From Mesostigma viride (lineage: Eukaryota > Streptophyta > Mesostigmatophyceae > Mesostigmatales > Mesostigmataceae), in contig RPFO01001483.1 of NCBI GenBank assembly GCA_009746045.1, forward strand, positions 22,501 to 86,500: DNA of 64,000 nucleotides. The letters are read 5' to 3'. The notes below the pieces were generated by a model, which did no database searches, had not been told where the DNA came from, and worked only from the letters and a program-made list of their open reading frames with translations. Below, in pieces: positions 17,345 through 40,671 of this stretch (positions within the stretch are counted from its first letter, which is position 1; each line of letters opens with the position of its first letter). The position numbers and the translations under genes are program-made.

Positions 17345-17400
17345 CACTATACTTTTCGTCCGAGGGTGGTAAAAAGCATCCGAGGCGTAAATTACGAGGT
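17345..17400 (+). repeat. Left terminal inverted repeat of the 23-kb element
   Basis: Matches the reverse complement of 40616-40671 at 55 of 56 positions; the mismatch is at the 42nd base from the tip. The inner part already contains the GTAAATTACGAGG subterminal motif. Confidence 0.95.
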
Positions 17401-17489
17401 GGTAAGTTACTCCGCTTTTACTCTTACCGTTTGCATACGAGTTCGGATCTTTCTCGTAAGCTACGAGTTAGATCCGAGGTAAGATCCGA

Positions 17490-17586
17490 CGTCGTAATTT
17501 ACGAGGTAGTAATTTACGAGGTAGTAATTTACGAGGTAGTAATTTACGAGGTAGTAATGTACGAGGTAGTAATGTACGAGGTAGTA
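17490..17586 (+). repeat. Subterminal 15-bp array, first half
   Basis: About six copies of GTAATTTACGAGGTA in tandem. In CACTA elements such arrays serve as binding sites for an element-coded DNA-binding protein; that role here is inferred. The array is cut by the insertion at 17587 and resumes at 18506. Confidence 0.85.
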
Positions 17587-18505
17587 CAGTCATTCCCGCG
17601 TTAAGTTGCGTTTCTTAAGGTTGCGTTCCCGCGTTAAGTTGCGGCGCCGAAGTTTGGGGGGCGACCGCAACTTAAGCATGGAGGCCATCGCAACTTAACG
17701 CGGTAATGACTCGATTTGTAGGTGTCAGGCCATTTTTGGCCGCACAAGAGGCCATTTTTTGCCAAGTCCGGACCCGCTACGTGATTTTAGGCGGCAAAAT
17801 ACGCAAGCCCCTCTGGCGCGCAAATTTCCCCGCCTGCTGGCTTAGGTGAAAAGCGCGAATGCAACCTTACAAACTCAGTTTTGCAGCCTGCGGGCTGCGG
17901 TACATAAGAATCCACGACCATGCAGGGTCTGTAATTGAGACATCTTGCCGGAAATTACCACCATCACGCCGAATGCACGGCACCACAGAAGGGCAAAGAC
18001 AAGGTCGTCATTGAGGCCACAGGCAGTCTCGCTCCATAATAACCTCCATAATAACAGCAGTGCTGTCATTATGATTCTTTACATGCAGGCCATTGACAGT
18101 AAATGAAGCTTCCCTCACGACTGTTCCCATGTTTTGCCGGTCACAGTCAAACGTGAAGCCGGCTCGGCAACTAAGTAACCCGCCAAAAAGAGAGCCGAAG
18201 TCCGATCAGAGGGTTAAAACACACCGATTTACATGGTATAAAATGCAGGCACTGCGTGGCTGCCCACGGCGTGTTTTGCAGCCCGCCTTTGTCCAAAATA
18301 CCATCTGGCCTGGAAAATGGACTTTGGCCGGCTTTGAAGCTGCAGATGGATCGGGCTTGACGAGAGGTGTCGAATGCCGCATAGAAGTCCGTCAGAGGAG
18401 GAGGTGGTGGGCTGCTAGCCTAATTCTACCGTTAAGTTGCGTTCCCGCGTTAAGTTGCGGCGCCAAATTTTAGGGGGCGATCGCAACTTAACGCGGGAAT
18501 GACTG
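17587..18505. mobile_element. TA-flanked 919-bp element (Tc1/mariner-like)
   Basis: Perfect 24-bp inverted repeats start CAGTCATTCCCGCGTTAAGT at 17587 and end at 18505. TA dinucleotides flank both sides (17585-17586, 18506-18507), as expected for Tc1/mariner target duplication. It interrupts the subterminal array, so it is younger than the 23-kb element. The left end carries a further inverted copy of the tip (17690-17713) and both ends share a TTGCGTTCCCGCGTTAAGTT block, so each end could fold back. No transposase is visible. Confidence 0.75.
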
Positions 18506-18595
18506 TAATGTACGAGGTAGTAATTTACGAGGTAGTAAGGTACGAGGTAGTAATTTGCGAGGTAGTAATTTACGAGTTGGTAATTTACGATCCCG
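18506..18595 (+). repeat. Subterminal 15-bp array, second half
   Basis: About five further variants of GTAATTTACGAGGTA (ACGAGG, GCGAGG, ACGAGTTG), continuing the array cut at 17586. Confidence 0.8.
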
Positions 18596-19314
18596 GTACT
18601 CGGTCCCGTAGGTTACGACGTCGTATGCTTCTCGCGTACACTACCGGTACTACAATCATGTCGCTATGTCGTTCTGAATTGCAGTACGCATGTCACTTAT
18701 CAGAATTTCACTTTGATTTCACTTATCATTTCGGTCAACCTAACCCCTAACACCCATTTACCCGGGGGAAAAAAATGAATGGCATTTGCAGCAAGGCTCA
18801 TGCAAGACGAGTTCCTATTTCATAAAAAATTTCATTATTAAATGCAGGATTACATGTCATGCACAAAAATCCAACGCCTTCACAGAAAATAGCATATCAA
18901 GTCTTCTGACGACAATATCAAGTCAATATCAAATTCGTGGCTTCTCTTCGTGGCTTGAAATACTGTTTCCATGCGGTGCTTAGGACAGCTCCGGGGATGT
19001 CGGCACCGCACAGAAGCTCCATCCGGGAGCAAGTGCGCCGGGGGAAGATGTTGTACATCCAGAGCTCGATATGTGCGGGAAGCCGTCGTGTTGGAAACCG
19101 AGGTGTCTGCACATAATTCCGCGCGCAGGCAGCTTGTGCCTTTACGGGGGAAGACCTGCGACACAAAAACCGTGTCCGGACAATGCAATACGGAGAAATG
19201 GCAACGGCAGATGGAGTCGGCTAAGGCCGCTTGTAAGGAAAGTGATTTTTAATGCACGAATAAATGTATAATGCATGCTACATCGCCATCGCTTGGGCGG
19301 TGAAAAGACAAGGA

Positions 19315-19545
19315 CCAACCACATGCCCCCACCTACCCTTCGTGCATCCCGCCCTTGACGAGGCACAACCATGTGCCCCCACCTACCCTTTGTGCGTCCC
19401 TCCCTTGACAAGAAACAAGCACGTGCACCTATCTAACCTTTGTGCATCCCTTCCTTGGCAAGGAACAAGCACACCCACCCACCTACTCCACATGCATCCC
19501 TCCCTTGACAAGGAACAAGCACGATCACCCAGCTACCCACTAGCA
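19315..19545 (+). repeat. Diverged minisatellite, unit about 45-55 bp
   Basis: Four units sharing CACCTACCCTT, TGCATCCC, CCCTTGACAAG and AACAAGCAC words, with length differences. Confidence 0.75.
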
Positions 19546-19784
19546 CGGCAGCAAGGCAGACCTTACAATGGCAAGTGATGTTTATCGGTAGAAACTGTTA
19601 GACAACTAGCAAACGAGCCAGCCGGTGAAGAGCAAGGCACGCATGCAAGGAATTTGTCGTTGCCTATGTCTACGCTTGTGTTTGTCACTGCAGTTGAAAT
19701 CTGCATTTGCATCAGCAGGCCCGATCGAACCCCATGTCGCCACCCGCATTTCCACTTATACTTCACGGCCCCTTATTCTTCTCT

Positions 19785-20165
19785 TGTGCCTGCCTTTGCC
19801 CTAACTGTTACCCTAGCATCTGCCCTTGCCCCTATCCTTTGATCCCCAGTGTTTGCCGTTGCCCTCATCCTTTCCCTAGTGCCTGCCCTTGTCTTCATCT
19901 TTTCCCTTGTGCCTGCCCTTGCCCTTGTCCGTTCCCTCGTGCTTGACTTGTCCTAATCTCTTTCCCTTGCGCCTGCCCTTGCCCTTATCCGCTTCCCTTG
20001 TGCCTGCCCCTGCCCTTGCCCTTGTCATTTCCCTTGAGCCTGCCCTTTTGGCAAGCACAAGTGCCTTTGTCCTTTCCTTGGCCTTGTGCTTGCTCTTCCA
20101 GTTTCCCTTTCCTTTGCTCGTGCGGTTGCCTTTGCTCTTACCCGGGTGCTTGCCCTTGCCGTTTG
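19785..20165 (+). repeat. CCCTTGTGCCTGCCCTTG minisatellite
   Basis: Repeated blocks of TGCCTGCCCTTGCCCTT with spacer variation, pyrimidine-rich on the plus strand. Confidence 0.75.
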
Positions 20166-20606
20166 CAAGCTGCATTATTGTCTTAGCAAGCTAGCAAGTG
20201 CAAACTGGCACTGAGCCAGAAATGCAAGCAAAGCAGCCAGTGTAAATAAGGATGGACGGGAACAGTAGAAAGCTAGGGGTGGCAACGGTGCTAGAGCTCA
20301 TGGCAACAAGGTGGTCCCATTCTTGCTGCATTGGGTGCGTTGCGTGGGTGGGATATTGCGAGAGGGGGACATTCTTGCCTTGGTTGTGTTTTCACATGCA
20401 CCCGGTGCTTGAATTTATGCGTGCAAGGGTGGCTGGTATCCCAACCAACAGCCTAAGAGGAAAAAGAGTGCTTAGAAAGCAAGAATGACTTAATGTTGGT
20501 AATAGCAGTGGCGGCAGCAAAAACTGTTGTTATAGATGCAAGCTACAACACTGCGGATGGTTTCTCACACTAATGTGGATAATGATAATGCATGCCACAC
20601 TAGGAA

Positions 20607-20950
20607 CTCAATTTCTGAGAAAATTCTCAAAACCCTCAATTTTCTCACCTTTTGTGAGAATTTTTTGAGAAAATTGAGAAAAATCTCAATTTTTTTCCGC
20701 AAACGCTAGGCAAAAAATCTCACCAGGGTGAGATTTTGGTGAGAAAAAGGGCGTTTTGGTGAGATTGGGGTGAGAAAAAACCCTAAAGTGAGAAAAAAGG
20801 TGAGAATGGGTGAGAAAAAGGCAGAAAGATTGAGAAAATTGAGAAAATTGAGAAGTTTCTCACCAACACGAGAAAAATCACTAACACGAGAAAAATCACA
20901 AGTCAACGTGGTGAGAAATTTCTCACCAAGAGTGTAACACGAGAAAAATC
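20607..20950 (+). repeat. Left subterminal GTGAGAAAA-type motif array
   Basis: Many copies of GAGAAA, GTGAGAAA and GAGAAAATT at irregular spacing, mirroring the right end. Presumed binding sites for an element protein, by analogy with CACTA subterminal repeats. Confidence 0.75.
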
Positions 20951-21103
20951 ATGAGCTTTATTTCATTAAGTCCTTAACGTGAAAAAAAAACTCAACACCA
21001 CTTTGATATGCATTGTAGGGTGCACAAAGGTGCAATATAGGGTTGTCATACAATATAAAACAGCACATCATTCCATAAACAATGCTGTCATGCCCAAATT
21101 AAA

Positions 21104-24100
21104 TCAAAAGTCATCTTCTTCAGAACTGCTGTCCGAGGGGTTGCTTGCATCAACATCATCTTCTGATGACATAGTGTCATCCCCACTAGTGTCGCAATAG
21201 TTCACAGCTTTACGCTGCCTTCCACTGGCCCTCTTTGCCATAGGGACCTCCTCAATTACAACGGTGGGCTGGCTAGGTCCAGCATCTGTGGGAGCACCAC
21301 GCTTGCGGCTGCGCCCTCGAGCAGGTGCCTTGCCAGCGCGGCGCACCACGTCGCCATCACCTACGTCTGCCGCTGCCACCTTCTTCTTCTTCTTGGACCC
21401 CTTCTTCTTGCCTTTCTTCTTGCCACTAGGCGGTGGCATCGGCTCACCCTCCTCAATCACTTCAAACTGCGGCATGGTGGGGAAATCTGCTGCCACGCTG
21501 TGATACACATGGTTACTGAGGGAAGATTGCGCCTGGTGTGCCATGCTCCATGGCAGTTTGGCAGGGATTACCACCATTTCGGGAGCATAGCATTCATCGA
21601 CGACATACCCAACTGAGCTCACTGCACCTGGCAACACAAGGCGCGACGACCTGGGGGCCTGTGCGCTGCTGATGACCACCAACCTCTCGTGGGGCAGGTG
21701 AGCGACATGAAGGCGATCAAAAAGCTCCACCTTCAACAACAGCTGCCATTCCCAGCCCCCTCGTGGGTACTCTAACCTGGCCTTCAGAATGTGTGTGATG
21801 AAACCAAAGTCTACACCGCCCGGGCCATGCACCGCAACTCCCGCATTCTTGTGCCGCTTTCCCAGGGATTGGTCCGCAGCCTCTGTGCGGTAGTTGAACC
21901 CGTGTATCCTGACTTTGTGGAAAGAATCCGCGTAGCGCTTCACGCCCCCACACGCCGCTACAATGCCTTGCGGCACAAGCGGCGTCAGGTTTAATGATGC
22001 CCATGCAATCACGTTGAACGTTGTGTCAGCACAGCGATCTCGCCTGCATTCAAACAAACGCACACCGATAACCCAGCAAAGAGTATTATTATTAACTCGT
22101 CGTCTGTCCCTGGTCCTAATTTTAGGACTGAGTTCAACTCAGTCCTAATTTTAGGACCTAATTTTGAGGTTTTGTAGAAAATTCGCCCCGGTCGGAATAT
22201 TTGGCAGAAAAATTTTCTCAAAATTTATTCAAATACTACTTGAAAAGATCTTTCTTGGACATATTTTTGGGATTTTTTTGGATTTGGTTTGGGCGGCTAA
22301 CCGTACGGTGAAAGTACAGGTGGTAAGGGTACATTTTCACGCGAAACGTGAGTTCCGGAAATGCACGACCTAGCCATGGCGGCTTGCGCCCATGCATGCA
22401 GTTTACGTTTTCGGACGATTTTGCGGGCCAAACCCAGGAAATAGATTTTTTATGTCCTAAAGATGATATAAGTGAATTTTAACCTCGCGGGGATGCGATT
22501 TACTGGGTGTCGGCACTGTTCTTGCTGGAAAAATCTGCGATTAGGCAGGTCGACGGAATGGATTACTACAATTGATTCCCGGATCAAATCGAAGGGTTTA
22601 TAGGTTTCTTTCTACCTTTTATCATGTATTGTCGTAGATTAAGTCTAGTGGCAGTAAAGATTTGATGATTTCGACCACTCTGTCACGTCATGGTTTGTGT
22701 GCCGCAAAGTGCCACTTTTGCAGGCACCGCCTGGGCCAAGGTAACGCCAGCCGTGCCAGGCAAAGCTGAAATATCGCTGCTTCATCGTTTCTTGGTATTC
22801 GTACATGAGTTTAAGCTTGCGATGCGCTGTCAGTTTTGAGTCTTGCTGCTCTTTCTTGACCGTTGCCTGCCCCTCTCTAAAACCATCTTTTTAGATGATC
22901 TTACCAGGCATTTGCCTTACCGTAGCGTGGCTGTACAAGGTTTTAGGTGCTGAATGGGTTAAAACACTTTCATAGATGTTAGTTATTCTCTTGCTATGTT
23001 CATACTGCATGATTGTGTGGTCATGGGCTGCGTCAAGGGTACTGTCAAGCTTATACGGGTGAGTGAAAAATCTTGGTGATAAACCACTGTGATCATGTGC
23101 CAGCAGGTATCTTGGCCATGTCATGGCAAGGTAATACAGTTTTATCCATGTCCATTCTTGTAAAGAACAATTAAATGTGACTAACCTACCCATTATATCG
23201 GTGGTTATTACTTATAATACATCCCTTTGTAGCTACGTATCCATACGCATTCCTTATATGTATGCATAGGCTTTCACACATACTAAGGTACAATATAACT
23301 GCAATATGATGATGCAAGTATGTTTTCCTATTATGCCTGAAGGGAAATGGGCTGATTGACATGGTTTGTGGCCACGCTACTATGTAGTATGACCGCACTT
23401 ACATGCTTGCAAATTGCTAGCATGGCCCAGTCCTATGTATAGGACTGGCAGTATTTGGCGTGTTTCAGGCAGTGCCAGTGGCCAAATTGAGTCCAGTTTT
23501 TTGCCACAGGTCAAGAACTATATTGTTTACATGCCTGTATTTTTTTAACATGCATATGGAATTTATTCAATTTTTGCCACTCATACTTCCACACAAAAAT
23601 GCAAATTCGCCGACGGTGCCATACATCCATGTAATTTTTAGGAGTTTGGGTCAAGTTTTCACTGATGTAGTATTTTTGCCAGCAAGAGGACATCAAATAC
23701 TCCATAGACTCACATCTAAGCATCTTGGATGGACCACCCACCTAGTCACTACACACGGTTGAAAAAGGTCAACTCAGTCCTATTATTAGGACTGAGTTGG
23801 GACAGACGACGAGTTAAGTATTGGTTATTAAAAAAAATAGAACGGATACAACACAGGACGCTTTTACTGGCGGCAAGATCATGGCACCCGGATGGGTAAA
23901 ACCAAACAAACTAGATATTAATTACTAGGGCTGGCTTTGTGACAGTAAAACATGATTGCATGGCTAATCCCAAGGCGCCTTTCAATAGGACTGAATTAAA
24001 ATAACCAAAGCAGACGGCGTAAGTAGCATTTGCAAAAAACAAGGCTCACCAGTAGGCCTCGTCGCCATTCGCAGGGTCGCTGTAATCAGCCTTGGGAAGG

Positions 24101-24155
24101 GCATCTTCTCCCAGCAAATCCCTTGCGGCGCGTTGTGTCAGCACAGCGATCCCCC
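21104..24155 (-). CDS. CACTA transposase-like gene, two 3' exons (5' part not found)
   Basis: Exon 24155-24050 and terminal exon 22043-21104 join across an intron with acceptor TGCAG at 22044 and donor GTGAGC at 24049. The phase is consistent and forms a Trp codon at the junction. The terminal exon gives about 313 residues. Its first 150 residues run FHKVRIHGFNYRTEA, then KNAGVAVHGPG, VDFGFI and LFDRL. This spacing resembles the DUF4216-type domain that follows the catalytic part in plant En/Spm (tnp2) proteins; this is my reading, unchecked by search. The rest is Lys-rich, then Arg/Lys-rich, and ends in an acidic Ser/Asp tail, suggesting a nuclear protein. The catalytic DDE region was not located upstream, so the gene may be truncated. 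The intron holds a TTAA-flanked insertion. Confidence 0.55.
22096..23813. mobile_element. TTAA-flanked 1.7-kb element (piggyBac-like target)
   Basis: CTCGTCGTCTGTCCC at 22096 and its reverse complement ending 23813 are each flanked outside by TTAA (22092-22095 and 23814-23817). Just inside are inverted copies of CAGTCCTAATTTTAGGACTG-type palindromes. TTAA duplication is the hallmark of piggyBac elements, but the tip does not start with the usual CCC and no transposase is seen, so it is a non-autonomous candidate. It sits in an intron of the transposase-like gene; without it the intron would be about 0.3 kb. Confidence 0.6.
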
Positions 24156-24200
24156 CTGCATCCAAACAAAGGCACACCGATAACCAAGCAAAGAGTATGC

Positions 24201-25146
24201 AAATGTGTAGCCTTGTTCATTGAAATTATGGCTGGCTTACGCAAAGAGCGACTGTAAGATGACCTATACAGTGGGGCCGGAAACAGCTTGCTTGATCAGG
24301 GCGTGTTTTTCGAGCTTCACTGGCCGGGAGTGTCTAGTGGTGAGAACCATTGCTGCGATCGCTTTCCCACCATTTACGAGGAAATACCCGCAAATGAAAA
24401 ACCACTGAAACGGTCTAGCTAGTCAGTCATTACATTAGCCACATGCCATCATGCATGTTTCCAAACGTCCAGGAACTGCACACGGTGCAAATGCCATTTG
24501 CAGTGCAAAAATCCAGAGGACACGACCTCATTGCTTCATATTTGTATGCAGAAGACTAAAAAAGTAACATGCATTAATGGCCCGCATGCATAAAGGGCCT
24601 GAATTCTGATGCGGGCCCAACGGCAGCACCGCCAAAGCAGATAAGGGCCCGCAGTCTGATGCGGGCCCCACGGCACCACCGCCATAGCAGAGCTCGAAGG
24701 TCGTGGTGCGCGTGAAACGTACGTATGCCCTTTGTCGGTAGGTGCCGTTGGGGTCAAATTGGGTGCCGCCAAAATCGGGCCGACGCGTCAATAGACTGAG
24801 GCCGTCGATGAGAGCCATCATGCGGCTTGGGGAACTTCAGCTAAGTTAACTTAACGCAAACCACTGGTCGCCCGCGTCGGGAACCGGCCCAACGGCTCTC
24901 CCGCAACAGAAAATAACGCGGCATACTGCATACGTCGTCGGATTGTTACATTTCGACGGTCAAGATTTCATGATGAGGTTTGCGTTCAATTTGCCGCAGT
25001 TTGCCGCCCAGAGAAAGTAGTTGTTGGACTCGTTGCCCACGATGAAACACAATCAAGCAAGCCGTTTCCGGACCCACCGAGTAGGTCATGTAGTCGCTCT
25101 TCACGTCAGCCAGCCGTAATTTCAATGCACAAGGCTACACATTTCC
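24201..25146. repeat. Inverted repeat pair with about 100-bp arms
   Basis: 24201-24298 matches the reverse complement of 25049-25146 with scattered differences. Both arms keep an open frame with the shared words KSD, GPETACLI and LKL. The right arm runs on to a stop at 24946 (62 codons on the minus strand). A third, decayed copy of the arm is at about 31843-31925. It may be a composite insertion or a duplicated exon. Confidence 0.5.
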
Positions 25147-25262
25147 ATCTCCATTCATATTCATAATCCTGCACGACTCGAAAACGCGGACAAGATAACG
25201 GCAGGCTCGAGCTACCATGGTCCGGATTCTCCCGATTTCTGGCCTGCGCTGGTTGTCTCCTT
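25049..25262. repeat. Dispersed repeat, copy shared with 31843-32046
   Basis: Direct repeat of about 205 bp: both copies contain CCATTCATNTTCAT, GACTCGAAAACGCGGA, GATAACGGCAGGCTCGAGCT and CCCGATTTCTGGCCTGCGCT. A short inverted remnant is at 12556-12592. This suggests the end of another transposon family. Confidence 0.7.
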
Positions 25263-26139
25263 GATATTGGCAACTCTCTCCGGTAAGAGATTTTCCGCAG
25301 TTTGGCTGTTTCGAAACGTTCATTACGTGAGATGCCTTCGGATCAGGAGACTCACACAGCCGCGAAATCATGCCAAAGGTCATATGTTCGATCCCTTGCT
25401 GGTAGCTTCTGAGCTTTCTTATTTTCTGTGTTCCGCGGAATCTCAGATTTGGGCCGCTAGCGTTTTCACGCTTGTTGCTTTCTGATCCGACGACAACGTT
25501 GTGCCTTGCTCGTGTGACATCTGGCGCATGGTGTGATTCATGTGTATGGTGCTGCCTTGCCACATGGGGCTGCTTTGCCATAAGAGTGAGTGTTGGGTTC
25601 TACACATTTGCTGCATGGACCGTTAGGTGCTGGTGAGCTCTTCCTTGTAGAACGCTTACATCTATGTCAAGGATCTGATTTCTTTTCCTCTTGCGTATAT
25701 TGTGTCGGTTTGCTTTATTTCTTGCAGGGACCACGAGAGTAAAATGCAAGCGGTTCCACTTTCAAGTCAGCATGTGACGCCCTGTCGACCGGCCCGCTTT
25801 GTTAGCTAGCTACCATATAGTATTTGATGATAGGCATTGAATGCGGAAGATGTCATAACGCCATAACAGACTGTGTTGAACAGGCATTGAATGCCGAAGA
25901 TGTCATAACGCCATAACAGACTGTGTTGAAAAGGCATATTTGAATGCCGAAGATGTACATAACGCCATAACAGTGTTGAATAGTTGAATCAATGGGTTCT
26001 TGCAGCTGTAAACATTAAAATTATTCAAACATTTAATGAAAAAATCATTATTGTTCGTGCTGTTTTGAACAGCGGTTGTTACTGGCACTGCATGCATGTG
26101 TCTGCTGCCAGCATATTGCATTATGGGTGTGTTTTTCAG

Positions 26140-26476
26140 CGCTGTGTTTTCTCACTTTTCTCACTTTTCTCACGTCCTGTTTTTCTCACTTTTCTCACTT
26201 TTCTCACGTCCTGATTTTCTCACTTTTCTCACGTTTCACACCTCCCGTTTTTCTCACTTATCTCACGTCCTGTTTTTTGAGATTTTTCTCACGTTTTTCC
26301 CCTTTTTTCACCTTTTTGGGGCAATCTCACCCGTGTGAGAAACGTGTTTTCTCACCCATTCTCACCCCATTCTCACCCTTTTTTCTCACCTTTCTCACCC
26401 ATTCTCACCCATTTCTCACCCTTTTTCTCACCTTTCTCACCCTTTTTCTCACCATTTCTCACCCATTCTCAAAGCC
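26140..26476 (-). repeat. Right subterminal TTTCTCAC motif array
   Basis: Dense TTTTCTCAC repeats, the mirror of the left subterminal array, ending at the inverted terminus of the 5.9-kb CACTA element. Confidence 0.8.
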
Positions 26477-26488
26477 GAGTTCCTAGTG

Positions 26489-27904
<1,416 letters not shown>

Positions 27905-28355
27905 GCCATGGAGGGTGGTGGTACACAAATACCGTACAGGTGGTACACAACTGCAGCCAGGACAACAGCCGGGCGCTGCGTACCTGCCGTGGGAAGGAGG
28001 GGGTGGTACACAAGTACCGTACAGGTGGTACACAACTGCAGCCAGCACAACAGCGAGTCGCTGCGTACCCGTGGGAAGGAGGGAGGTGGTGGTACACAAA
28101 AACCGTACAGGTGGTACACAACTGCAGCCAGCACAACAGCGAGTCGCTGCGTACCTGCCGTGGGAAGGAGGGGGTGGTACACAAATACCGTACAGGTGGT
28201 ACACAACTGCAGCCAGCACAACAGCGAGTCGCTGCGTACCTGCCGTGGGAAGGAGGGAGGTGGTACACAAAAACCGTACAGGTGGTACACAACTGCAGCC
28301 AGCACAACAGCGAGTCGCTGCGTACCTGCCGTGGGAAGGAGGGGGGTGCTACACA
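27905..28355 (+). repeat. Tandem repeat, five units of about 80-90 bp
   Basis: Each unit has GGTGGTACACAA, ACCGTACAGGTGGTACACAA, CTGCAGCCAGCACAACAGCG and CGTGGGAAGGAGGG. Units differ mainly by small indels, so the array is recent. Frames stay open by chance across it. Confidence 0.9.
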
Positions 28356-28359
28356 AATA

Positions 28360-29060
28360 TCCGACCTATATATTAGCGATAGCCGCCGCCTATTAAACAG
28401 GTCCTATTCATCACGAGCGTCAACGCCCCGTCATCGCCCCGTCATCGCCCGGCCGAGGGCCTTAACCTGTTAACTGTTTATTCGGAGTGATAGTCAACGA
28501 CCTATACTACCAATAGCTGCCGCATATCAAACATCGGTTTTTCATCGGGCCCGTCGAGGGCGATGACGGTGACGGTCGTCACCGTCATCGCCCTCGACGG
28601 GCCAACATCTAAACTCTTCTCTTAATCAACAATCTATATTACCAATAGCCGCCGCCTATCAAACAGATCCTATTCATCACGCGCGTCAACGCCCCGTCAT
28701 CGCCCCGTCATCGCCCCGTGATCGCCATGCCGAGCCAGCCGAGGGCCAACCTCTTAACTCTTTACATTTGTATTCGGAGTAGTAGTCAACGACCTATATT
28801 ACCAATAGCCGCCGCATATCAAAAAGGTCGTATTCATGACGCCCGTCGAGGGCGATGACGGTGACGCCGTCACCGTCATCGCCCACGGGCCAACATCTAA
28901 ACTCTTCTCTTAATCAACAATCTATATTACCAATAGCCGCCGCCTGTCAAACAGATCCTATTCATCACGCGCGTCAACGCCCCGTCATCGCCCCGTCATC
29001 GCCCCGTCATCGCTCCGTGATCGCCATGCCGACTGCCGAGGGCCAACCTCTTAACTCTTT
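28360..29060 (+). repeat. Alternating A/B tandem array with large hairpins
   Basis: Five segments of roughly 130-150 bp in A-B-A-B-A order. All begin CTATATTACCAATAGCCGCC (or a variant). A units contain repeated CCCCGTCATCG; B units contain a palindrome. The first B palindrome has a perfect 26-bp stem (28548-28573 with 28578-28603) and a 4-base loop. The second has a 15-bp stem (28851-28865 with 28869-28883). Confidence 0.85.
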
Positions 29061-30083
29061 ATTCGGAGTAATAGTTAACTGCCGGCATTGCCATACAAGA
29101 AGAAGCTCTCGATCCTAGGTATAGACTACCTCGGGTATCATCATCGTAATTGCTAGCATCGAGATCATTCATACCTACCGACGATGGCCAGCTTCAAAAG
29201 AAAAATGTCGACCAACAGACAGGACCTATCGCCGGGAACCCTCAAGGCAATAAGGGCGAGACAGGCTTTCACCGTTAAGTAAAGTTGTCCACATCGTGCT
29301 AAGGAATTTGTGCTAATCTATGAGTACCTATATGGACACTTTGTCGCATTTTTTACATGGCAAATAAGCGATGTATGTGTCATGTAGGCTGCCATTGGTG
29401 CATGCATGCATGGGCCAGCAATGATGGTCAGAGGTACATTGTGCCTATGAGATAACCATCGATTTGTTGATCAGCAAGTGATTCATTACGTGAGACAACA
29501 ATATGTTTGGGGGCTAAGCTTCTTACATTGGTCACATGGTCCGCCATAATTGTTTTCTTATGTGTTTAAGGTTAGGGCTCTGTTCATGACTGAACGTCAT
29601 GAACGCGCTCTATTCATGACATTGATTAATTGATTTTAATTAGTCTCATGTCCATGTTGGGGGACCGGGATCTCTGAATTCCCCAAAGAAGATATAGTGG
29701 AAGTCCCCCAAGACGTCAATATCCGTCAAGACGTCAATAACTACATGTATGTCCAGAGCTCAGCTAGTAGTCTAAAATATGGGCCTCGAGCTAATCTTGC
29801 ACGCAAGCAATGCCTATCATCAAGGATGAATTAATGCCTATCAACAAGGAGACAATCATGCTTGTTAAATTTCCTAGGACCCACAACTGGGGGGTCGTAG
29901 TCTTTGACAATGTCCGCCTGGGCAACGCTACTAATCCTACATATCCGAGGTCCCATGTATGAATAAGAGGGGTTGAGCGGATGACGCCAACAGTGTCTGT
30001 GCTCTGCATGTCAGCTAAAATCATATCGCGGAGACAAACATATGGCGGTATGTCCAATGTTGGCCACTGCGTCGCCTAACAGG
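29061..30083. other. Unannotated interior of the 23-kb element
   Basis: No convincing gene. A short frame from ATG 29184 is only 32 codons. A TTAA-family tail lies near 29625-29670, and direct repeats of CAAGACGTCAATA are at about 29709-29741. Confidence 0.4.
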
Positions 30084-30120
30084 TTCTTACATGGTCGGCA
30101 AGGGCCTGACCATGTAAGAA
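30084..30120. repeat. 13-bp perfect hairpin
   Basis: TTCTTACATGGTC at 30084-30096 pairs with GACCATGTAAGAA at 30108-30120 around an 11-base loop that can add three GC pairs. Function unknown; possibly a transposon end. Confidence 0.6.
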
Positions 30121-30258
30121 GATATCTCCCTGGCTGGCCAGTCCACAAGGAACCAGCACAGACCTCATCTGAATCAACCTGATTAATTAACTAACTACTT
30201 AATTCATTTATTAAACTCATGCCCCCATTAGGGAGTCAAGGAGCATTAGCTAACCCCG

Positions 30259-30553
30259 ATTAATTAATTAATTAATTAATTAAACACGTGCTCCTGTTGG
30301 GGAGTCACGGAGCACCGAAGTGCTTTTAATCCCTGTGTGTGCACAACAGGAGAAAGGGCAGAGACCCCCAGTCTCCTTCATGCCTAAGGCATGCCACAGC
30401 TGCATTCGGGAACGCTAGCTAAACGGACACGCTAACGATCCGGCAATCTGTGGGTGCAATAAGACCCATGTGAGCATGGCATAACACTAGGAGCGTGGGC
30501 AAGTAATCTCATCATAGCCAGGACGTAGCATGGCTGTACTAGGACTATACCCC
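30259..30553 (-). mobile_element. SINE-like element with (TTAA)n tail, copy 1
   Basis: About 295 bp matching 50003-50308 in opposite orientation. Shared words include CCGGATCGTTAGCGTGTCCG, GAATGCAGCTGTGGCATGCC and GGGATTAAAAGCACTTCGGT. The 3' end reads GGAGCACGTG then about six TTAA units. Non-coding, with a variable simple tail, as in SINEs copied by a LINE. Its 5' end abuts the (TGGA)n array. Confidence 0.65.
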
Positions 30554-30558
30554 GATCA

Positions 30559-31553
30559 ATGGATGGATGGATGGATGGATGGATGGATGGATGGATGGAT
30601 GGATGGATGGATGGATGGATGGATGGATGGATGGATGGATGGATGGATGGATGGATGGATGGATGGATGGATGGATGGATGGATGGATGGATGGATGGAT
30701 GGATGGATGGATGGATGGATGGATGGATGGATGGATGGATGGATGGATGGATGGATGGATGGATGGATGGATGGATGGATGGATGGATGGATGGATGGAT
30801 GGATGGATGGATGGATGGATGGATGGATGGATGGATGGATGGATGGATGGATGGATGGATGGATGGATGGATGGATGGATGGATGGATGGATGGATGGAT
30901 GGATGGATGGATGGATGGATGGATGGATGGATGGATGGATGGATGGATGGATGGATGGATGGATGGATGGATGGATGGATGGATGGATGGATGGATGGAT
31001 GGATGGATGGATGGATGGATGGATGGATGGATGGATGGATGGATGGATGGATGGATGGATGGATGGATGGATGGATGGATGGATGGATGGATGGATGGAT
31101 GGATGGATGGATGGATGGATGGATGGATGGATGGATGGATGGATGGATGGATGGATGGATGGATGGATGGATGGATGGATGGATGGATGGATGGATGGAT
31201 GGATGGATGGATGGATGGATGGATGGATGGATGGATGGATGGATGGATGGATGGATGGATGGATGGATGGATGGATGGATGGATGGATGGATGGATGGAT
31301 GGATGGATGGATGGATGGATGGATGGATGGATGGATGGATGGATGGATGGATGGATGGATGGATGGATGGATGGATGGATGGATGGATGGATGGATGGAT
31401 GGATGGATGGATGGATGGATGGATGGATGGATGGATGGATGGATGGATGGATGGATGGATGGATGGATGGATGGATGGATGGATGGATGGATGGATGGAT
31501 GGATGGATGGATGGATGGATGGATGGATGGATGGATGGATGGATGGATGGATG
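30559..31553 (+). repeat. (TGGA)n tetranucleotide array, 995 bp, uninterrupted
   Basis: About 249 perfect copies with no interruption visible. Long frames through it (repeating Met-Asp-Gly-Trp on plus, His-Pro-Ser-Ile on minus) are artefacts of period 4. Confidence 0.98.
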
Positions 31554-32222
31554 TCAGGCTTGTCTTACATGATGCAGTGGAACTTTGGTGCTGGAGGGTT
31601 AATTGTGGCCCGGTCTGGTTTAGCTTCAGTGCTCTCATGGCGGCCTTCATTTGTAATTATTTGAATGCATGCCCATTGGGCCATGCATAGTGTATATTTT
31701 TTACGCATGCACGCCCATTATGTATCGCTGGGTCCATCCCATCAATGCTTGTTTATTGCCAGGTCTGGTGTAAGTAAGTTAGTACTTGCGTGTCATGCGC
31801 ATGGGCATGTTTAGAGTACTATGCTAATCTCTTTAGAAACATGCTGTTTCCGGCCCCACCGTCTAGGTCATCTAGTCGCTCCACACGTAAGCCAGCCATA
31901 ATTTCAATGCACAAGGATACACATTTCCATCACCATTCATCTTCATCATCCTGAACGACTCGAAAACGCGGAAAAGATAACGGCAGGCTCGAGCTACCAT
32001 GGTCCGGATTCTCCCGATTTCTGGCCTGCGCTGGTTGTCTCTTTGATAATTACACGGAAGTTACAAATCTCATCTGCATCATGCCCCAAGACACTACATT
32101 AAAGAATCAAATAAAATTATAACATGCCTCCGTTGGGAGATCATGCAGCACATGCATATTCCTTGCTGAATGGGTAGAGGTGGGTCAAGCCGCGACATCG
32201 AAATAAGCTAACTCTAAGCTAT

Positions 32223-32435: not shown

Positions 32436-33370
32436 GGGTTCATAAAGACAACAATTATTCAGTAAGAATTTAATAAATTAGGAACATATATCCGTTGGGA
32501 GTCACTGTTACACATATACCTGAAAAGGGGCATATGATTTTAAATACATTCTGAGCTACAACCTGCACGTGCATGGGTTTAGTTAACTGGCACCTATACT
32601 AGAGGCCTGACATGGGGTGGAGCTTCAGTGCTTCCCCGCCTTCTCCTTCTCCCACACTGGGTGCTCCGCGTCCTTCTTCTCCGGCCCTGCCCATGGGTGC
32701 ACCGGCCCCGCCTCCTCCTTCTCCTCTCGGGACGATTCGCGCTCCACGCATGGCTGCAGCATCAGTTAGCACGGGCAAGACATAGCAGTAACCGCGCTAT
32801 GGCTGTTCTAGCACCAGCCTAGCAAACTGCCATGATCACTCAGCAAACCCACGACAGCTAAACCCTTGGCTGTCACAACCAGTCCATGCATCATTAAGTA
32901 TGGGTACAGGGAAAGCTTCCCGCATATCCATGGCCATATGGATGGCAGCAACACAACGACTTGCCCCCTAGCCCCCGTGCACACACAAAAACGTGGGTCG
33001 TGGCTTCCACGCCCCATCCGCCATGCATGACAGCGCGTACCTTACTCGCATTCACACCGGGCTGCATCCCAGCGCCGTTGCTGTCCCCATGTGACACGTC
33101 GGCTGATTAAGCAGATACACAGCAGAGTCTGATGTAAACCGCTAAACCCCAAACCCATGCAGACCACAGTCAAGGACGCGTGCATGTCAAGCCATGCCAA
33201 TTGTGAACCGTACAGCAATTTACTTTTCAAGCCTGAAGAGGTGGATAGCAGATACTAGCCTGGAAGAGGTTACAGGGGCACATGTCCAGTAGCGAGCGGA
33301 ACAACACAGCATACACCCTACAAGCGTACCGCACAATGTCCTCCTGCAATTGTCTGCAGATCTCCCAATG

Positions 33371-33462
33371 CCGCAGACATCTCCACTGCTCTCATGGCGA
33401 TTGCAAATGCTTCATGCCGCTGACATCTCCACTGCTCTCATGGCGATTGCAAATGCTTGATG
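33371..33462. repeat. Two-copy direct repeat, about 45 bp
   Basis: GACATCTCCACTGCTCTCAT plus GGCGATTGCAAATGCTT occurs twice with one substitution near the join. Confidence 0.9.
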
Positions 33463-33540
33463 CCGCACCTCTGCTTACAGCAGAAAAGCTTCCTCCGGGC
33501 GAGGCACCTGACTGGAACCAACACCCATTCCTTGGCTTCA

Positions 33541-34647
33541 CAACGTGGCCATGACAGCATCGTGAATCTGCTTCGCCAACGCCCACACTTCAGGACCCGC
33601 GCCCTGCACCGCCATGGCCACAGGCTGCACCGCTGCAATCGATGCAGCATTCACTGCCTGCGCCGCACCATGTACTGCATGCACGAAAGCCAATCCTGGC
33701 TCGGTTATCATGGTCTTGCCCGATTCCTGCTGCTTCTTCTTCTTCGATGCGGTCATGCGCACTTTATACCCCTTCCTCTCCAAGCACGCCTTCAGCACCT
33801 GGCTCGTGCGGTGCTGAATATGCTTCTGAAGGCGCGCCTTCTAAACACGAAGTGTTGGCAATGTATGATTCCCAAACGGCATGATAGGCACATAATCAGT
33901 CCCATTAATTGCTTTGCGGCAGTCAATGCACCAGAACACCTGTTGAAAAAAGAAGGTTATGCACGCTAGCGATTACCCGCGGCAAGAAGCAATCAACACG
34001 CCTCGCTAACAACTGCAACCACAATGTAATTCATGACGGGCCACTCACCGCTACCCTGCTCTCCTGCTTCAATGTCTCCCCATTCTCAAGGCCTCCATTG
34101 TAAACCTCTCCGTCTTCACCATCGTCATCGTCTTCCTCTTCCTCCACTCCGACGTATCCGTGTTTCCTTTTCCTAAGATACCTAGGGTTGTTCAAGTCGT
34201 ATGTGCGGCGTTGGCACACTTCCAACAAAATTTTGGCCGCCTCTACCCATTACCATTTATTCGTACTATCATAACATATCCAGGCGTTTGAAAAATCATT
34301 CCCTCGTTCGAACTTCTACCCCTGGGCGTCCATGACGAGGCAGTCACGACGGGACGCAGATGCACAAAAATAAAACAAGGCGACATCCCTTCAATCATTG
34401 ACCAAAAAACAGAATACGCGCAGAACTTGGATTTCAACACCACGCACCCATTACCAGCGAGCACGGCTGGCCTGCAACCGCCATCATTTCATAACCAGAA
34501 GCCAGGGCCCACACTCCATCCCGTTACCTCATCTTCCACGCACGGCTTCCGCTGCTTCCCTCTGCTCTTTCGCATTCTCCGCCAGCAACCTCGCCTTCTC
34601 CTCGTCCAACAATCCACTAAGAATAAAATCCCCTCTATTGGACGCCA
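33541..34647 (-). CDS. Unrecognised three-exon gene in the 23-kb element
   Basis: My model is exon 1 from ATG 34647, exon 2 ending at a strong GTGAGT donor near 34048, and exon 3 after TTTCAACAG from about 33938 to a stop at 33541. Exon 1 reads MASNRGDFILSGLLDEEKAR and continues as a likely coiled coil. Exon 2 has a run of Glu/Asp after YLRKRKHGYVGV. Exon 3 begins VFWCIDCRKAINGTDY with a C-x2-C pair and continues through KARLQKHIQHRTSQVLKAC to an Ala-rich helix. One TAG interrupts exon 3; it could be a dead codon or the end of an unmodelled intron (GTTTAG). The small zinc-binding and coiled-coil make-up would suit an element-coded DNA-binding or regulatory protein, but I do not recognise the family. 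Confidence 0.4.
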
Positions 34648-36156
34648 TTCAGACGAACTTTGCTAGCGTCTTTTCACCGGCCCCAGCACACATAATCTAT
34701 AGCCGCTTAATGACAACGGCCGACAACGACAACTGCTGAATAGGCGAAAAAGGCTGATAACTACATTTTTATATTTCGCTGCATTTGCTAGTCGGGGTAA
34801 AATTGGCTCTTTTTTAGCAAATTTAGCAAATTAGCAAATTAGCGGAAGGCGGGGGCCGAGATTAATTAAGAGGTACCTTGAAATTAAATAAGACGCATAC
34901 CTCTATCGAGATATATGTTCGGAGGCGAATTTCTATTGGCGTTAATTTGTACTATTGTACGACAGCTGTCAAGGGTGACGGCATGTACTGAAATCGCGGA
35001 TACTTTCTAGATCGATTGCGCATTCGACGGTTAAAAGGCAGAGCTGCGGTTGAAAGTACAGTACGTGGGGGGGGACGGTGTTACAACGGCCGGGGGGGGA
35101 CGCAGTTATGGGGGGGGGGGACGGTGTTACAACGGGGGGGGAACGCACTTATGGGGGGGGGGAACGGTGTTATCGGGGAAATGGACCAAAGAGGTGAGAG
35201 GGGAAATGAGTATCAGCGAATCGTTAATGGGGGGAACGGTGTTACACCGGGGGGAGTCGCAGTTGTCAGTTTCAAACCGAATATCTATTGGACCGTAGTT
35301 CTAGGAAATTGTAGATGGCGATTAGTTCGGCACTTCCGGGCGTCAGGCCCAGTAAGGTCCAGGTGGAAGTTTAGACACCTTGCAATCACAGAATAGCGGT
35401 TACAGGGATATTATTTAATGGAAATGGCCGACACGTTGGAAACTGATTGCGGTTACAAACCTTACGTCGTGTGTGATTGGCTGGATACTAACGGGGCACG
35501 AAGACCAAAGGCAGAAGGAGCGGCCACGCGTCACGATTCGTGTGATTGACAGGATACACGCGAATATAGGTGTGTGAACGAAGGGTCAAAAAGAAAACGA
35601 AAGGCCGACACCATGGCGGCGATGAACACAACGGTACGAGCCGCGCCAAAATCTGCCCTCGTAAGCGGTACCCGAAAAGTGGCGCCAAATGCGATTTTTG
35701 GTGTGCGCGTGCACGAAAGTGACCGAATTTCGGGCGACAGGCATGGCGGTCTGGCAGGCGATGCTGAGCGTGTATAAAGGCACTATCAAGGCTGAAATTT
35801 TACGATTATCCTCCTAAGGTGTTATTCGATCCACCACTGTTTTTTTTTAGCCATAAAATGTGCGGAATCGAACAGCATGTTGCGTCATTCATAGGTGGGT
35901 GCCTGAATGGTCGCAGATTTTCTCTCGACCCCACCTGACCGCAGCAAAAAATTTTCCCGATGAAGTGCGCCCTAAGATCGGGGTTTCCATCATAAACGAT
36001 GCATTTTTTAATTCTAAAGACTTTGACCGAACGACTTTCTTCATTACCGCTGCAATTTTTTTTCCCTGAGCTACCGCATATTTCCGACCAATTTCAAGGC
36101 TGCGTCAGGCTTGGCAGACCCATACTTCGTATATATCTGCGTTTGCCCCGAACGTC
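34648..36156. other. Non-coding stretch with G-run repeats
   Basis: At 35048-35250 runs of 7-12 G alternate with ACGGTGTTACAACGG-like spacers. 35181-35228 matches 6634-6682. 35615-35660 (GGCGGCGATGAACACAACGG) resembles the complement of about 49850-49905. No gene recognised. Confidence 0.5.
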
Positions 36157-36742
36157 ATGTTTAATGCAGGCTTTGTGGACTCTAAAGACGCCCACGATGT
36201 TGGGGCTTTTATCAGCCTCTGGACATGCACAAACTGCGGTCAGCAGGTGAATGCCGGAACGAGTTTCTGCGGCGGGGTGTGCGAAACAGACATCAAGCGC
36301 ACGGCAGACATGGATACCTCCGAGCGGTATGTTCCCTTATTCAAATCTACGGGCCAATTCACTCCTTGTTGAATCCCTGACCTTGTCACGGATGAATATG
36401 TTACCAGTTCCCCATCTCCGGAGTTTCTCTTTTGGTCATCTTCTTATCTTACGGGAGGTGCGTCATGAATCGTATAGCGAGCTACGGTTTCATGGCGAGC
36501 CTTTTCTTCACATCAGCGACGTACAGGTTACCTTAGAGGCTAGGGATGTCAAGGAATTCTTCACACGGATATTAGGGAGGGTGCATGACGGATTGCGGGC
36601 AAGATACGGGCTGGCTGGCAGCCTTGCAGCGCTATTGCCGCCGATGGCAATGATTTGCAGGCAGGGCTATGGATCACAAAGCTGTTGCTTTGCTCTAGTT
36701 GTACATGCTGCAATTTATTGGCATTGTGCTCACGGCAAGTAA
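36157..36742 (+). CDS. Unrecognised two-exon gene with a zinc ribbon
   Basis: Exon 36157-36326 ends at a strong GTATGT donor (phase 2). Exon 36424-36742 follows CTCCGGAG and restores the frame. The first exon contains WTCTNCGQQVNAGTSFCGG, with paired cysteines (C-x2-C and C-x3-C) spaced like a zinc ribbon. The second contains REVRHESYSELRFHGEPF and LEARDVKEFFTRILGRV, which look like folded protein. The last 40 codons are less convincing, so the true end may be an earlier donor. It lies inside the 23-kb element and could be the start of an element-coded nuclear protein; no family identified. Confidence 0.35.
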
Positions 36743-37893
36743 TGTTGCATGACATGGTTGACCACGAAGATTGATGGAAAACCCAGAAGCAATTGGTGGC
36801 TTTCTTGGATGCTCGATGGCTTCACATGCTTGTGAGTCCATAAAACCCACTGCATACGTGCCCACCGTCTCTAAGCTGAAAGCATCTGCCTTCAACAAGC
36901 ATCTTAAGACATGCATGCACATGAGAACTGTCATGGTTTGTGGAGAGGGTGGCATATTGCGTGAGAGCGGAGAGAGGACAGTGGCCGGGCTAGGCCAGCT
37001 ACCTGTGCTGCCACAGGACCGGGCGGCAAACACCGATGCACAAGCTGCCTTACACACCAGCACCCAAGCTGCCTTCATACCCCTGAATGATGAGCAGAGG
37101 GCATCCTGGACGGCCGCATCCATGCAGTTCATGCAGTTCAGGCTGTGCGTGCTGGCCAAGGGCACGGGTAAATGAGCCAATGGCGGGCTATTATTACGCA
37201 CGCTGCAACCAGCGCCAATGAAGCAACCCAAGCCTGCCCTCCTGACAGGTATGTGTGTTTTGTTTTCTCATGTCGTGTGCACAACCAGCAATCCTTTATT
37301 TCCCTATGATGCATGTTTGCGGAATTCTGGCAACCTGGCACATGGCCAAACTCCTCAATGTCAGGGCTGGGAGGGGTTGTTTGTCAAGTGGATAGACACA
37401 CGCACATGCTCAACACCTCTTGCTCCAATGCCACTGCCACTCACCCAGAAACTCAGGCACAACCACGCACGATCGCTAAGCTGCTAGCCAGAATCGCAGT
37501 CCTCACCAAAGTGAGGGATGGGGCACCAGCTAGTTTGACAGTCTGGCTGAGGACGTGCAGGAGTTGAATGACATATCTGAAGCAAGTAGTCACGGATGGC
37601 TTGGAGAAACATGGTGAAGCATGCATGGGCATGCATCTCATGTTGACAAGGGCCAGAGCAAGAGCATGAGCACGATGCATGTGCCTATGTAGAGGCCATT
37701 GGGCTTGCACTATCTGTTGAAGACAACTGCGGTATGGTGGCCAAGCGGCTCACCGGGGATGTGCAGTGGCTTCTTCATGCTAGGTATGATGGCGGCCAAG
37801 TGCAGTCCTTTGGTGGCACATTTCAAGCCGGCAACCTCGAGGTAGCAACTGAGCAGTGTATGAGCTGTCTGGCTATGCACCACAGCGCTGGCT
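36743..37893 (+). pseudogene. Decayed coding-like region
   Basis: A 134-codon frame (36771-37175, first ATG at 36774), then a broken frame from about 37450 to a TGA near 37893. The best part is VEAIGLALSVEDNC...VAKRLTGDVQWLLHARYDGG, open for about 80 codons with biased codon use but no start. Frames switch at about 37565 and 37650. I read it as remains of a gene carried by the element; family unknown. Confidence 0.3.
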
Positions 37894-39232
37894 GAGGAGA
37901 TCTAGTCCAACTTGGAAGCTGCGTTGCCAGCAACGTGGGCCCCTATAACAGAGACAGGGACATGGGGACATCCATGGTGATGCAGAGGACCATGTGTGGC
38001 AACCTTGGTCAGGCGGGCCGGTTGCCAAGGGATGTGCTGCTACCGAATCAAGGCGCACAAAACACATCGCAACCATGCCGACGGCCGAGATGCCTGGCAT
38101 GATTAGATTATTACATTGCCAAGCTGAGTTTGCGACTACCGTGCATGCTGTGGGTTTGAACTGATCATGCTAGCCAACGTGACAGCTGGCAGTTCTTATG
38201 TCTAACAAGCCCCTACTTGAAAATTGCCTTAGCATGGCCGTATGCACATATATACATACAACCATGTCTAGCCACTGTTCATGTTCATATATCTTTGTCT
38301 ATGTGTCACAAAAGTTGTGTTATATTATCTGTGCAAGGTCTGAACAGTTAGCAACACAGTTGGTGGGAGTTGGCCATACCGTTACAAAGAACTTTGCATC
38401 CAAGGTTGAGTGATTAGCTGGAAACTGGCAGGTGTTGCATGGACCAGTGAACCCAATGACACTTGATGGACCTGAAGTTTTGTGCAATGTCTGAAATGAC
38501 ATGATGATTAACATGGGCGCTTGTTTTCAGCCTCACCTGAGCACATCTTGCATGGGAAACTGCAAGAAATGTGGCGGAAATGCAAAAAACGCACATTTTT
38601 GCTCACATTTGCTAGCGAGCTGTCAATGAATGAAGTACAACAGACCTGGATTTTTGTGCAATGTCTACAATGATGATATTTAATATGCTTGCAAGTTTCC
38701 AGCCCCAACTGAGCACATCTTGTATGAAAACTGTCATGAAATGTGTTAAAAAAACGCGAAAAACGCGCATTTTTGCTAGCATTTGGTGGCATTTTGTTAC
38801 CAAATACAGTACGATGGACCTGATTTTTTGTGCCATGTCTACATTTATGATGTGTAACGTGATTGCAAATTTCCAGCCTCGACTGAACACATCTTCCATG
38901 GAAACTGCTATGAGATGTGGTGAAACGGTGCGTTTTTGCTAGCATTTGGTGGCAGTTTGTCACCAAATGAGGTCAGATGACCATGGGACCTGGTGCACAG
39001 TTGGTAGACATGAGCATAAGCCTACATGCAAACAGCCAGGTCAGGAGCTCTTTATTTGCATATCAAATGGTATTTGTTTGTATTAAAATCTGGAAAGTTG
39101 CTAAAAATAGACATGCCAAAAATAGACCAACCGATGTCGGAAAATTCTGGAAAGTCAAATTCCTTTTACTGGTGTCATGGACATGCTGCCTACCAATATC
39201 TAGCATGTTTGGACTCAATTTGCTCCTTGTAG
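37894..39232. other. Non-coding, includes a 170-bp repeat
   Basis: Between the decayed region and the coiled-coil gene. Apart from the tandem repeat at 38466-38985 nothing was recognised. Confidence 0.5.
38466..38985 (+). repeat. Satellite-like tandem repeat, three units of about 170 bp
   Basis: Units start near 38466, 38645 and 38815 with GATGGACCTG..TTTTGTGC. They share TTCCAGCC, ACTGAGCACATCTT, GGAAACTG and TTTTTGCTAGCATTTGGTGG. Diverged; a fourth partial start is near 38983. Confidence 0.75.
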
Positions 39233-40287
39233 GGCTTATAAGGGCATTTTTTGGCACTTTCATACCGTTGTGAAAAATCTGGTGCAACAAGACCTCTTCA
39301 AGGACCTCGTTGGAAAAGTAAACAAGCAGCGAGTCGACTTAACTAACGCCATCAGGGACAAAAAGCTTAATCTGGACCGTGCCAACGAAGGAGTACAAGT
39401 ACAAACAAAGAATGTAAATGCGGCTAAGGCAAGGTATCATGAACTCAAGACAAGGGAGGAAAAGCTCTGCGAGGAGAAAGTGAAAAAGGCGTACGAGACA
39501 ACCGTAGAACCCCAACTCAAGACGCTAGAGCGGCTGAAAGTCGCGTTATGCAAAAAGGAACAACTGTGGGAGGGGGTGGTCAAACATGCAACAAATGAGG
39601 TGCTGTCGACACTTGAGACAATAGGGCCCCTTCTCTCCAACGCAATCAATAAAGGGGCAGCGGTGGATAGCGTGGATCTGACGGGGTCCCAGGCGGACGA
39701 GGATGAATTATTGAACTCCGTTTTGTCTGCTGCCGGCAAGCTTGCTGGGGGGTCATCTGTAACCCCATCATCATCAACACAAACGTCCACAAAACAACAT
39801 GGCCAAGACCAAAACGCCGGCAAGTCGCCCTGGCCCGGCAAGGGGACTAAACGATCCCTCGATTTTGACGAACGCAATGAGGAAACGCCTGCTTTTGAGC
39901 CGTCGCCAGATGACGACCCCGTCCATGACGACCACGCCGGCCCAGCACCCGCCAACGACGCCGGACCACCTAGTTCATCCCAAAGAACGGGACTCGATGG
40001 ATCCAGCACATGCGAACCTCCAGATTCTTGAGGACGACGTTGTGCCTGAGTTAAACTGTGAAACAAGGCACCGGCGGCGCGGGCGGCATGCTATTTTAGA
40101 CGATACCTCCGAGGATGACGATGAAAACAATGTCGACAAGGAAGACGAACCAGAAGCAGAGCAAGAAGAGGATGAAGAAGTGGCAGAAGAGGAGGAAGGG
40201 GATATGTTGCTTTCTTGTGATTTGGGGTTTTTGTTAATTTTGGTAATTTTGTTAATTTTGATAATTTGTAAACTGGGGACAACCTAG
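39233..40287 (+). pseudogene. Coiled-coil protein with acidic tail, frameshifted
   Basis: Open from a likely acceptor (TTGTAG, 39227-39232): the frame begins AYKGIFWHFHTVVKNLVQQD, then a long charged coiled coil (KVNKQRVDLTNAIRDKK through KVALCKKEQLW). A Ser/Thr/Pro-rich region follows and the frame stops at 40031. An overlapping frame (39799-40287) then carries a strongly acidic tail (DDTSEDDDENN, EAEQEEDEE), so I infer one frameshift near 39990 separating body from tail. Position close to the right terminus and the coiled-coil/acidic make-up suit an element-coded accessory protein; family unknown. An upstream first exon is not identified; the 36.2-kb exons are candidates. Confidence 0.4.
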
Positions 40288-40439
40288 TCAGTAAAAAAAA
40301 AAATAATAGACACGCACGTTCTCCCACTTCTCCATTACAATATAATTATCCGTCTGGCCGTGTACAGGCAAAGATCCCCGAAGTAGCTTACTGAAACGTA
40401 TCTTACAGCATCGGATCACTGGCACCTAATCTACAGGTG

Positions 40440-40671
40440 GTAGATTACCAACCAAGACCCGTCGCGGTAATTTACTCTGTCGGTAATGTACTACCAAAGA
40501 TGTGCAGTCGTAACGTTACTCTTACTTACGGCTAGTAAAATTACTACCCTATCATCCTACGTAGTTATGATTACGGCGTTGGATCTCACGCCTCGGATCT
40601 AGGTAGTAAGATAAGACCTCGTAATTTACTCCTCGGATGCTTTTTACCACCCTCGGACGAAAAGTATAGTG
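40440..40671 (-). repeat. Right terminal inverted repeat and subterminal region
   Basis: 40616-40671 is the 56-bp terminal repeat. Inside it, variants of GTAATTTACTC, GTAATGTACTACC and CCTCGGATCT recur in both orientations, less regular than on the left. Confidence 0.85.

Follow-up and report, generated by a model that had tools for sequence, protein, structure and literature searches.

A 23.3-kb CACTA-type insertion in Mesostigma viride, probably an ordinary copy of a young non-autonomous family enlarged by nested insertions

Is a 23.3-kb CACTA-type insertion in the genome of the streptophyte alga Mesostigma viride a giant element carrying genes of its own, or an ordinary element that grew after it had inserted? 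The stretch analysed here (the window) comprises 64,000 nucleotides (GenBank assembly GCA_009746045.1, contig RPFO01001483.1, positions 22,501 to 86,500), and the element occupies window positions 17345-40671 (23,327 bp), beginning CACTATACTTTTCGTCC. The original prediction, made from the letters of the window, described a CACTA-type insertion with a preserved empty site and proposed a giant or cargo-carrying element with several unrecognised internal genes. Our analysis indicates, with a probability of roughly 0.85, that the element is a copy of a young, non-autonomous CACTA-like family that is moved in trans, and that this copy was enlarged by nested insertions. The family unit is about 10.4 kb long, with terminal inverted repeats (TIRs) of about 56 bp, repeated motifs near its ends, 2-bp target duplications and no recognisable transposase.

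The insertion is defined to the base by its termini, its target duplication and a second, unbroken copy of the target retroelement in the same window. The features concerned are as follows, with the strand given where one was assigned:

17343..17344, left copy of the CC target-site duplication (flank compared with the empty site)
17345..17400, plus strand, left TIR beginning CACTATACTTTTCGTCC (55/56 match to the right end; genomic repeats of its first 32 nt)
40616..40671, minus strand, right TIR (end comparison)
40672..40673, right copy of the CC target-site duplication (flank compared with the empty site)
15837..17344, minus strand, target retroelement copy A, part left of the insertion (97.6% identical to 53710-52204)
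40672..42112, minus strand, target retroelement copy A, part right of the insertion (97.9% identical to 52205-50768)
50768..53710, plus strand, target retroelement copy B, unbroken at 52204/52205 (RVT_1 in 51665-52513)

The first 56 bp of the element and the reverse complement of its last 56 bp differed only at position 42, and BLAST of the two ends aligned 67 bp at 92.5% identity. The flanks read ...GACCC on the left and CCTTGG... on the right, and the empty copy (minus strand, 52204/52205) reads GACCCTTGG; comparison of the three shows that CC was duplicated. The two halves of the target are directly contiguous in copy B, which is the empty site, and the reverse transcriptase match (RVT_1) in the target retroelement scored over the Pfam cut-off. 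The predicted CACTA-type insertion with a preserved empty site was therefore upheld. An assembly join or a tandem misassembly in place of an insertion has next to no chance of being the explanation, because the same structure with a 2-bp duplication was found at 17 further fetched loci and because the empty site is present in the same window.

The terminus is not unique in the genome, in agreement with the original prediction. A search of 439.9 Mb in 2,243 contigs with the first 32 nt, allowing up to two mismatches, gave 285 forward and 284 reverse matches (569 in total), and the reversed pattern used as a control gave none. Exact termini numbered 284, of which 272 are considered in what follows, being the ones listed. 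Within these 272 were 92 head-to-head pairs less than 70 kb apart and 88 unpaired termini. The pairs spanned 10,012-61,903 bp (median 14.8 kb), with 31 at 10-12 kb, 29 at 12-20 kb and 32 at 20 kb or more. Nineteen copies besides that of the window were fetched from 34 listed pairs, the shortest included and none above 22 kb; E12, which had no right end, was dropped, and the remaining 18 together with the window copy form the complete set of 19. A 2-bp target duplication was present in 18 of these 19 copies (chance P about 4e-21), and the flanks matched over 3 bp in only one. The family is thus high in copy number, at about 230-285 copies, and further full-length copies with 2-bp duplications exist as foreseen.

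Internally deleted copies, which the original prediction also expected, did not appear among the exact-terminus pairs: none of the 92 was shorter than 10 kb. A deletion series of the kind that leads to miniature inverted-repeat transposable elements (MITEs) was accordingly rejected for exact pairs, copies with altered or lost ends lying outside that set. CACTA families normally shed short deleted copies, and the lack of exact pairs below 10 kb is the one odd feature of this family, which may only reflect its youth.

The 19 complete copies share a core of about 10.4 kb. The core reference was copy E01 (10,388 bp); E02, E03 and E04 measure 10,143-10,429 bp, and these four copies have no large insert relative to one another. 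Divergence was counted against the majority base of the 19 copies at positions outside the tandem arrays. It was 0.24-0.63% in 15 copies, 1.16% in E16 and 2.78-2.95% in E02, E04 and E18, which make up a second subfamily. A conserved 60-mer from the middle of the core matched 228 genomic places with up to three mismatches. Among the first 100 places listed, all of them exact, 41 were inside exact pairs; of the 46 exact pairs that the listing reaches, 41 contain the exact probe, and the five that lack it measure 28.9-49.4 kb.

Alignment of the window copy with E01 was colinear with three large gaps, each of them an insertion with its own boundaries:

26489..31842, core segment common to the other copies (alignment)
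17345-17586, 18506-20597, 32046-34790 and 40304-40671, remaining core segments (alignment)
17587..18505, nested insert 1, 919 bp, 24-bp perfect inverted termini CAGTCATTCCCGCGTTAAGTTGCG, TA duplication (alignment gap and junctions)
20598..26488, nested insert 2, a second CACTA element, 5,891 bp, CA duplication (alignment gap and junctions)
34791..40303, plus strand, nested insert 3, 5,513 bp, starting GTCGGGG and ending in an A tract, TA duplicated (alignment gap and junctions)
31843..32045 (approximate limits), extra MITE-like piece of about 204 bp, similar to 25055-25266 and absent from E05 and E06
17494..17586, plus strand, subterminal 15-bp tandem repeats GTAATTTACGAGGTA, broken by insert 1 and resuming at about 18506-18590
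30559..31553, plus strand, (ATGG)n array in the core, longest perfect run 992 bp in the window copy

Insert 1 is presumably Tc1/mariner-like, a name that we take from its termini. Insert 2 starts with CACTAGGAACTC and ends in its inverse, the 12-bp inverted termini being perfect. The left end of insert 2 has 135 genomic matches and the 3' end of insert 3 has 129, the window's own included in each count, and none of the 18 other complete copies has either insert at the corresponding position. Together the three inserts make up 12.3 kb, so the window element without them measures 10,998 bp; what still separates it in length from E01 is explained in part by the extra piece (about 204 bp) and by a longer ATGG array. 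Most of the larger fetched copies likewise hold insertions with termini of their own, such as a 5.1-kb reverse-transcriptase element in E13 and an 11.1-kb insert with CACTAGGAGTTAATTT termini in E11, which is another large CACTA-type element. None of the 150 genome matches to PF02992 that were scored fell in the 11.1-kb insert.

These junctions decide the question of size for the window copy. That 23.3 kb is the full unit of a giant or cargo-carrying CACTA element, with the unrecognised open reading frames (ORFs) as its own genes, would fit the single TIR pair around the whole stretch, the other exact pairs of up to 61.9 kb (the copies read being no longer than the window's) and the giant CACTA elements with 4-5 ORFs cited for Chondrus crispus in the passages of PMC6431247 considered here. 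We regard it as very improbable. The two larger ORFs, at 21107-22063 (minus) and 39270-40028 (plus), sit in inserts 2 and 3, so the stretches that bear them are bounded by junctions and 2-bp duplications of their own, have ends that recur elsewhere in the genome, and are missing from the same positions in all 18 of the other complete copies. The junctions of the three inserts thus rule against a cargo-carrying or giant element in the window, and the two larger ORFs lie in inserts and not in the core; on this point the original prediction was not supported. No non-transposition genes of a mobile unit, as a cargo transposon would carry, were found, the larger ORFs being in nested inserts. A search of solved structures with these two ORFs returned nothing convincing (best E 0.072 and 0.044), and Rfam and ARAGORN gave no matches in the window.

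The ends of the unit carry repeated motifs. Between eight and 13 TACGAGGTAGTA units were present in 15 of the 19 copies; none was present in E02, E04 and E18, which have another motif, or in E13, the left end of which is displaced by an insert. In E01 the 15-bp tandem units lie on the left, and the words GTAATTTA and GGTAGTAA occur at both sides and are absent mid-element. In the other 18 complete copies the longest perfect (ATGG)n run ranged from 224 to 1,344 bp, E15 having an N run there, and the length of this array seems to change very quickly, as most of the 19 copies are otherwise nearly identical. Near-identical cores were also seen with differing subterminal sequences, there being two main left-end types and a third in E02, E04 and E18. 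The differing ends suggest, from comparison of the copies, that ends may have been exchanged between family members.

No CACTA transposase was detected in the frames scanned against Pfam, where the few matches were weak and below the cut-offs. The scan covered the main core segments in all six frames, insert 2 in every frame except one on the plus strand, and insert 3 in its plus frames and a minor part of its minus frames; the first 242 bp and the last 367 bases of the element, insert 1 and the ATGG array lay outside it. Across the genome, 150 of 239 Transposase_21 (PF02992) candidates were scored, and all 150 were above the cut-off, 141 of them without a stop. One of the 150 lay inside the 92 exact pairs (0.62 expected by chance) and two lay within 12 kb of a listed terminus, against about 2.2 expected (150 x 272 x 24 kb / 439.9 Mb). 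The same comparison with 100 listed ends of the insert-2 family gave nine of 150 against 0.8 expected, six of them at 4.0-5.7 kb. Transposase_21 is therefore linked to the insert-2 family, and this proximity serves as a positive control for the null result of the main family. Transposase fragments from three Transposase_21 groups of this genome, the insert-2 group and two others, share 51-54% identity, the latter two being 52% identical; used in tblastn, all three found no match in the fetched loci and the window (best E 4.2). KDZ transposase (PF18758) had no match in the genome, which is not evidence of absence because the control was positive in 0 of 14 genomes.

An autonomous 10.4-kb core, the transposase of which is divided among short exons or has diverged too far for Pfam to recognise, would suit a large, uniform and recently multiplied unit with no shorter exact-terminus pairs, and long introns are reported for Mesostigma in the passages of PMC6947507 considered here. 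It is nevertheless unlikely: six-frame matches in the main core segments stayed weak and below the cut-offs, and the same genome yields Transposase_21 matches over the cut-off, most without a stop. Core ORFs of at least 70 codons showed no clear purifying selection between the subfamilies, the lowest ratio being 0.39 on eight changes, in a test with small numbers that pooled three related copies and so counted changes more than once. A related suggestion, to which we give a low probability, is that mobility depends on the interior of about 10 kb, which has many tandem repeats and no apparent coding sequence, or that a multi-exon transposase encoded there has gone unrecognised; if true, it would explain why exact pairs below 10 kb are lacking.

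Several observations weigh against a non-autonomous family moved in trans and enlarged by later insertions, or limit how far that reading extends. No autonomous partner was found at the listed exact termini, so that movement in trans is likely rather than observed. The termini compared with transposase positions were the listed exact ones, and 285 of the 569, with one or two mismatches, lay outside the comparison. A 61-nt left-end pattern with up to three mismatches had 343 genomic matches, main-type right ends also falling within that limit, so that up to 226 of the 569 termini have another subterminal sequence and could include an autonomous partner. A 49-kb pair (C113:5605911-5655273) holds a Transposase_21 match and has no exact mid-core probe. 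Termini that share the first 13 nt and differ at the next four occur at three genomic places, from which it follows that a partner would either share the full TIR among the copies not listed or have a different-looking end. As to the copies themselves, 59 of the 100 listed mid-core probe places were outside exact pairs, E08 had no target duplication, and 88 of the 272 listed exact termini were unpaired, so that some copies must be altered or truncated and the lower limit of 10 kb holds for exact pairs only. Pairing by adjacency could also join the ends of different elements. Finally, no fetched copy is longer than that of the window, and the causes of the largest sizes lie outside the sample.

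The family resembles non-autonomous members of plant En/Spm (CACTA, EnSpm) in its CACTA...TAGTG termini, TIRs, motifs near the ends and short duplication. The CACTA...TAGTG ends were present in inverted repeats in all 19 complete copies, which were chosen by this terminus, and repeated motifs adjoin both termini in E01. The family departs from plant elements in its 2-bp duplication, the plant value being 3 bp in the passages of PMC4158355 considered here, in having no transposase or ORF2 that we found, and in its unit of about 10 kb, below which no exact-terminus pair falls. A Transposase_21-type DDE transposase was detected neither in the scanned frames nor by tblastn, and PF02992 matches fell inside exact pairs about as often as expected by chance; for this reason the family is called CACTA-like and non-autonomous and not a full member. 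The wider CMCT clade has CA..TG termini and duplications of 2 to 5 bp, according to the part of PMC12730594 relied on here, and the present termini and 2-bp duplication fall within that range, but placement in the clade rests on transposase sequence, of which none was found in this family. Nor is 2 bp foreign to CACTA elements here, since insert 2, of a Transposase_21-linked family, also made a 2-bp duplication. Enlarged En/Spm families of 16-20 kb with 4-5 ORFs are reported from Chondrus crispus (Kojima et al., 2013, as cited in a passage of PMC6431247); these too are large CACTA elements in an alga, but only the apparent size is in common, because those elements have their own ORFs, whereas the window copy owes its length to elements nested in it. 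LARDs (large retrotransposon derivatives), described in the same excerpted source as long, conserved, non-autonomous and moved in trans, offer an analogy only: they are long terminal repeat retrotransposons, unlike this TIR DNA transposon, and in-trans movement is for our family a likely interpretation. No paper naming this family was found in a literature search made by words and not by sequence. The published genome of M. viride NIES-296 comprises 441.8 Mb in 2,363 scaffolds with 66% repeats, by the figures taken from PMC6947507.

The CACTA termini, the TIR of about 56 bp, the subterminal repeats and the 2-bp duplication argue for a CMC-type cut-and-paste transposase acting in trans as the likely agent. 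A resident transposase would bind the TIR and, putatively, the subterminal repeats, excise the unit and insert it elsewhere with a 2-bp stagger. In the window the unit entered a reverse-transcriptase-bearing repeat, after which the 0.9-kb TIR element, the 5.9-kb second CACTA element and the 5.5-kb A-tailed element inserted into it to give 23.3 kb. The case shows how an apparently large transposon can be an ordinary one enlarged later, and that cargo cannot be read from size and terminal repeats alone. What makes the family useful is a recently multiplied unit of about 10 kb with no recognised transposase, the exact-terminus copies of which keep their full length; the same genome also contains a Transposase_21-linked CACTA family that makes a 2-bp duplication.

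In six copies, retroelement-like fragments have repeatedly entered the subterminal regions at one motif, AATTTAC. They lie 49 bp from the right end in E05, E07 and E17, near core position 10187 in E09 and E15, and near the left end in E13; those of E15 and E13 carry reverse transcriptase. At least two 3'-end families are represented, each found once at another target (window 5999-6013, minus strand, and inside E13). Site-specific retrotransposons aimed at the subterminal repeats were considered and rejected: both 3'-end families that were traced are also found at a second target, so that a loose preference for A/T-rich sequence suffices.

Other observations concern the nested inserts and the surroundings of the element. 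At C258:103491-106219, five matches to the insert-3 3' end follow one another at intervals of exactly 675 bp, which is odd for a dispersed A-tailed element. The insert of E16 has an open frame of 1,576 amino acids with a reverse transcriptase and a sub-threshold endonuclease match; since its ends resemble those of a 644-bp insert of E18, it looks like a retroelement within a TIR element within a CACTA element, as judged from these ends and matches. Three Pfam domains of host genes outside the element suit a nuclear genome of the green lineage. WRC is a plant domain, and a host gene exon with this domain (Pfam) lies at 3076-4965 (minus) of the window. Two further host gene exons with Pfam matches are those of a sodium/calcium exchanger at 55175-56314 (minus) and of an eIF3 subunit at 62379-63419 (plus).

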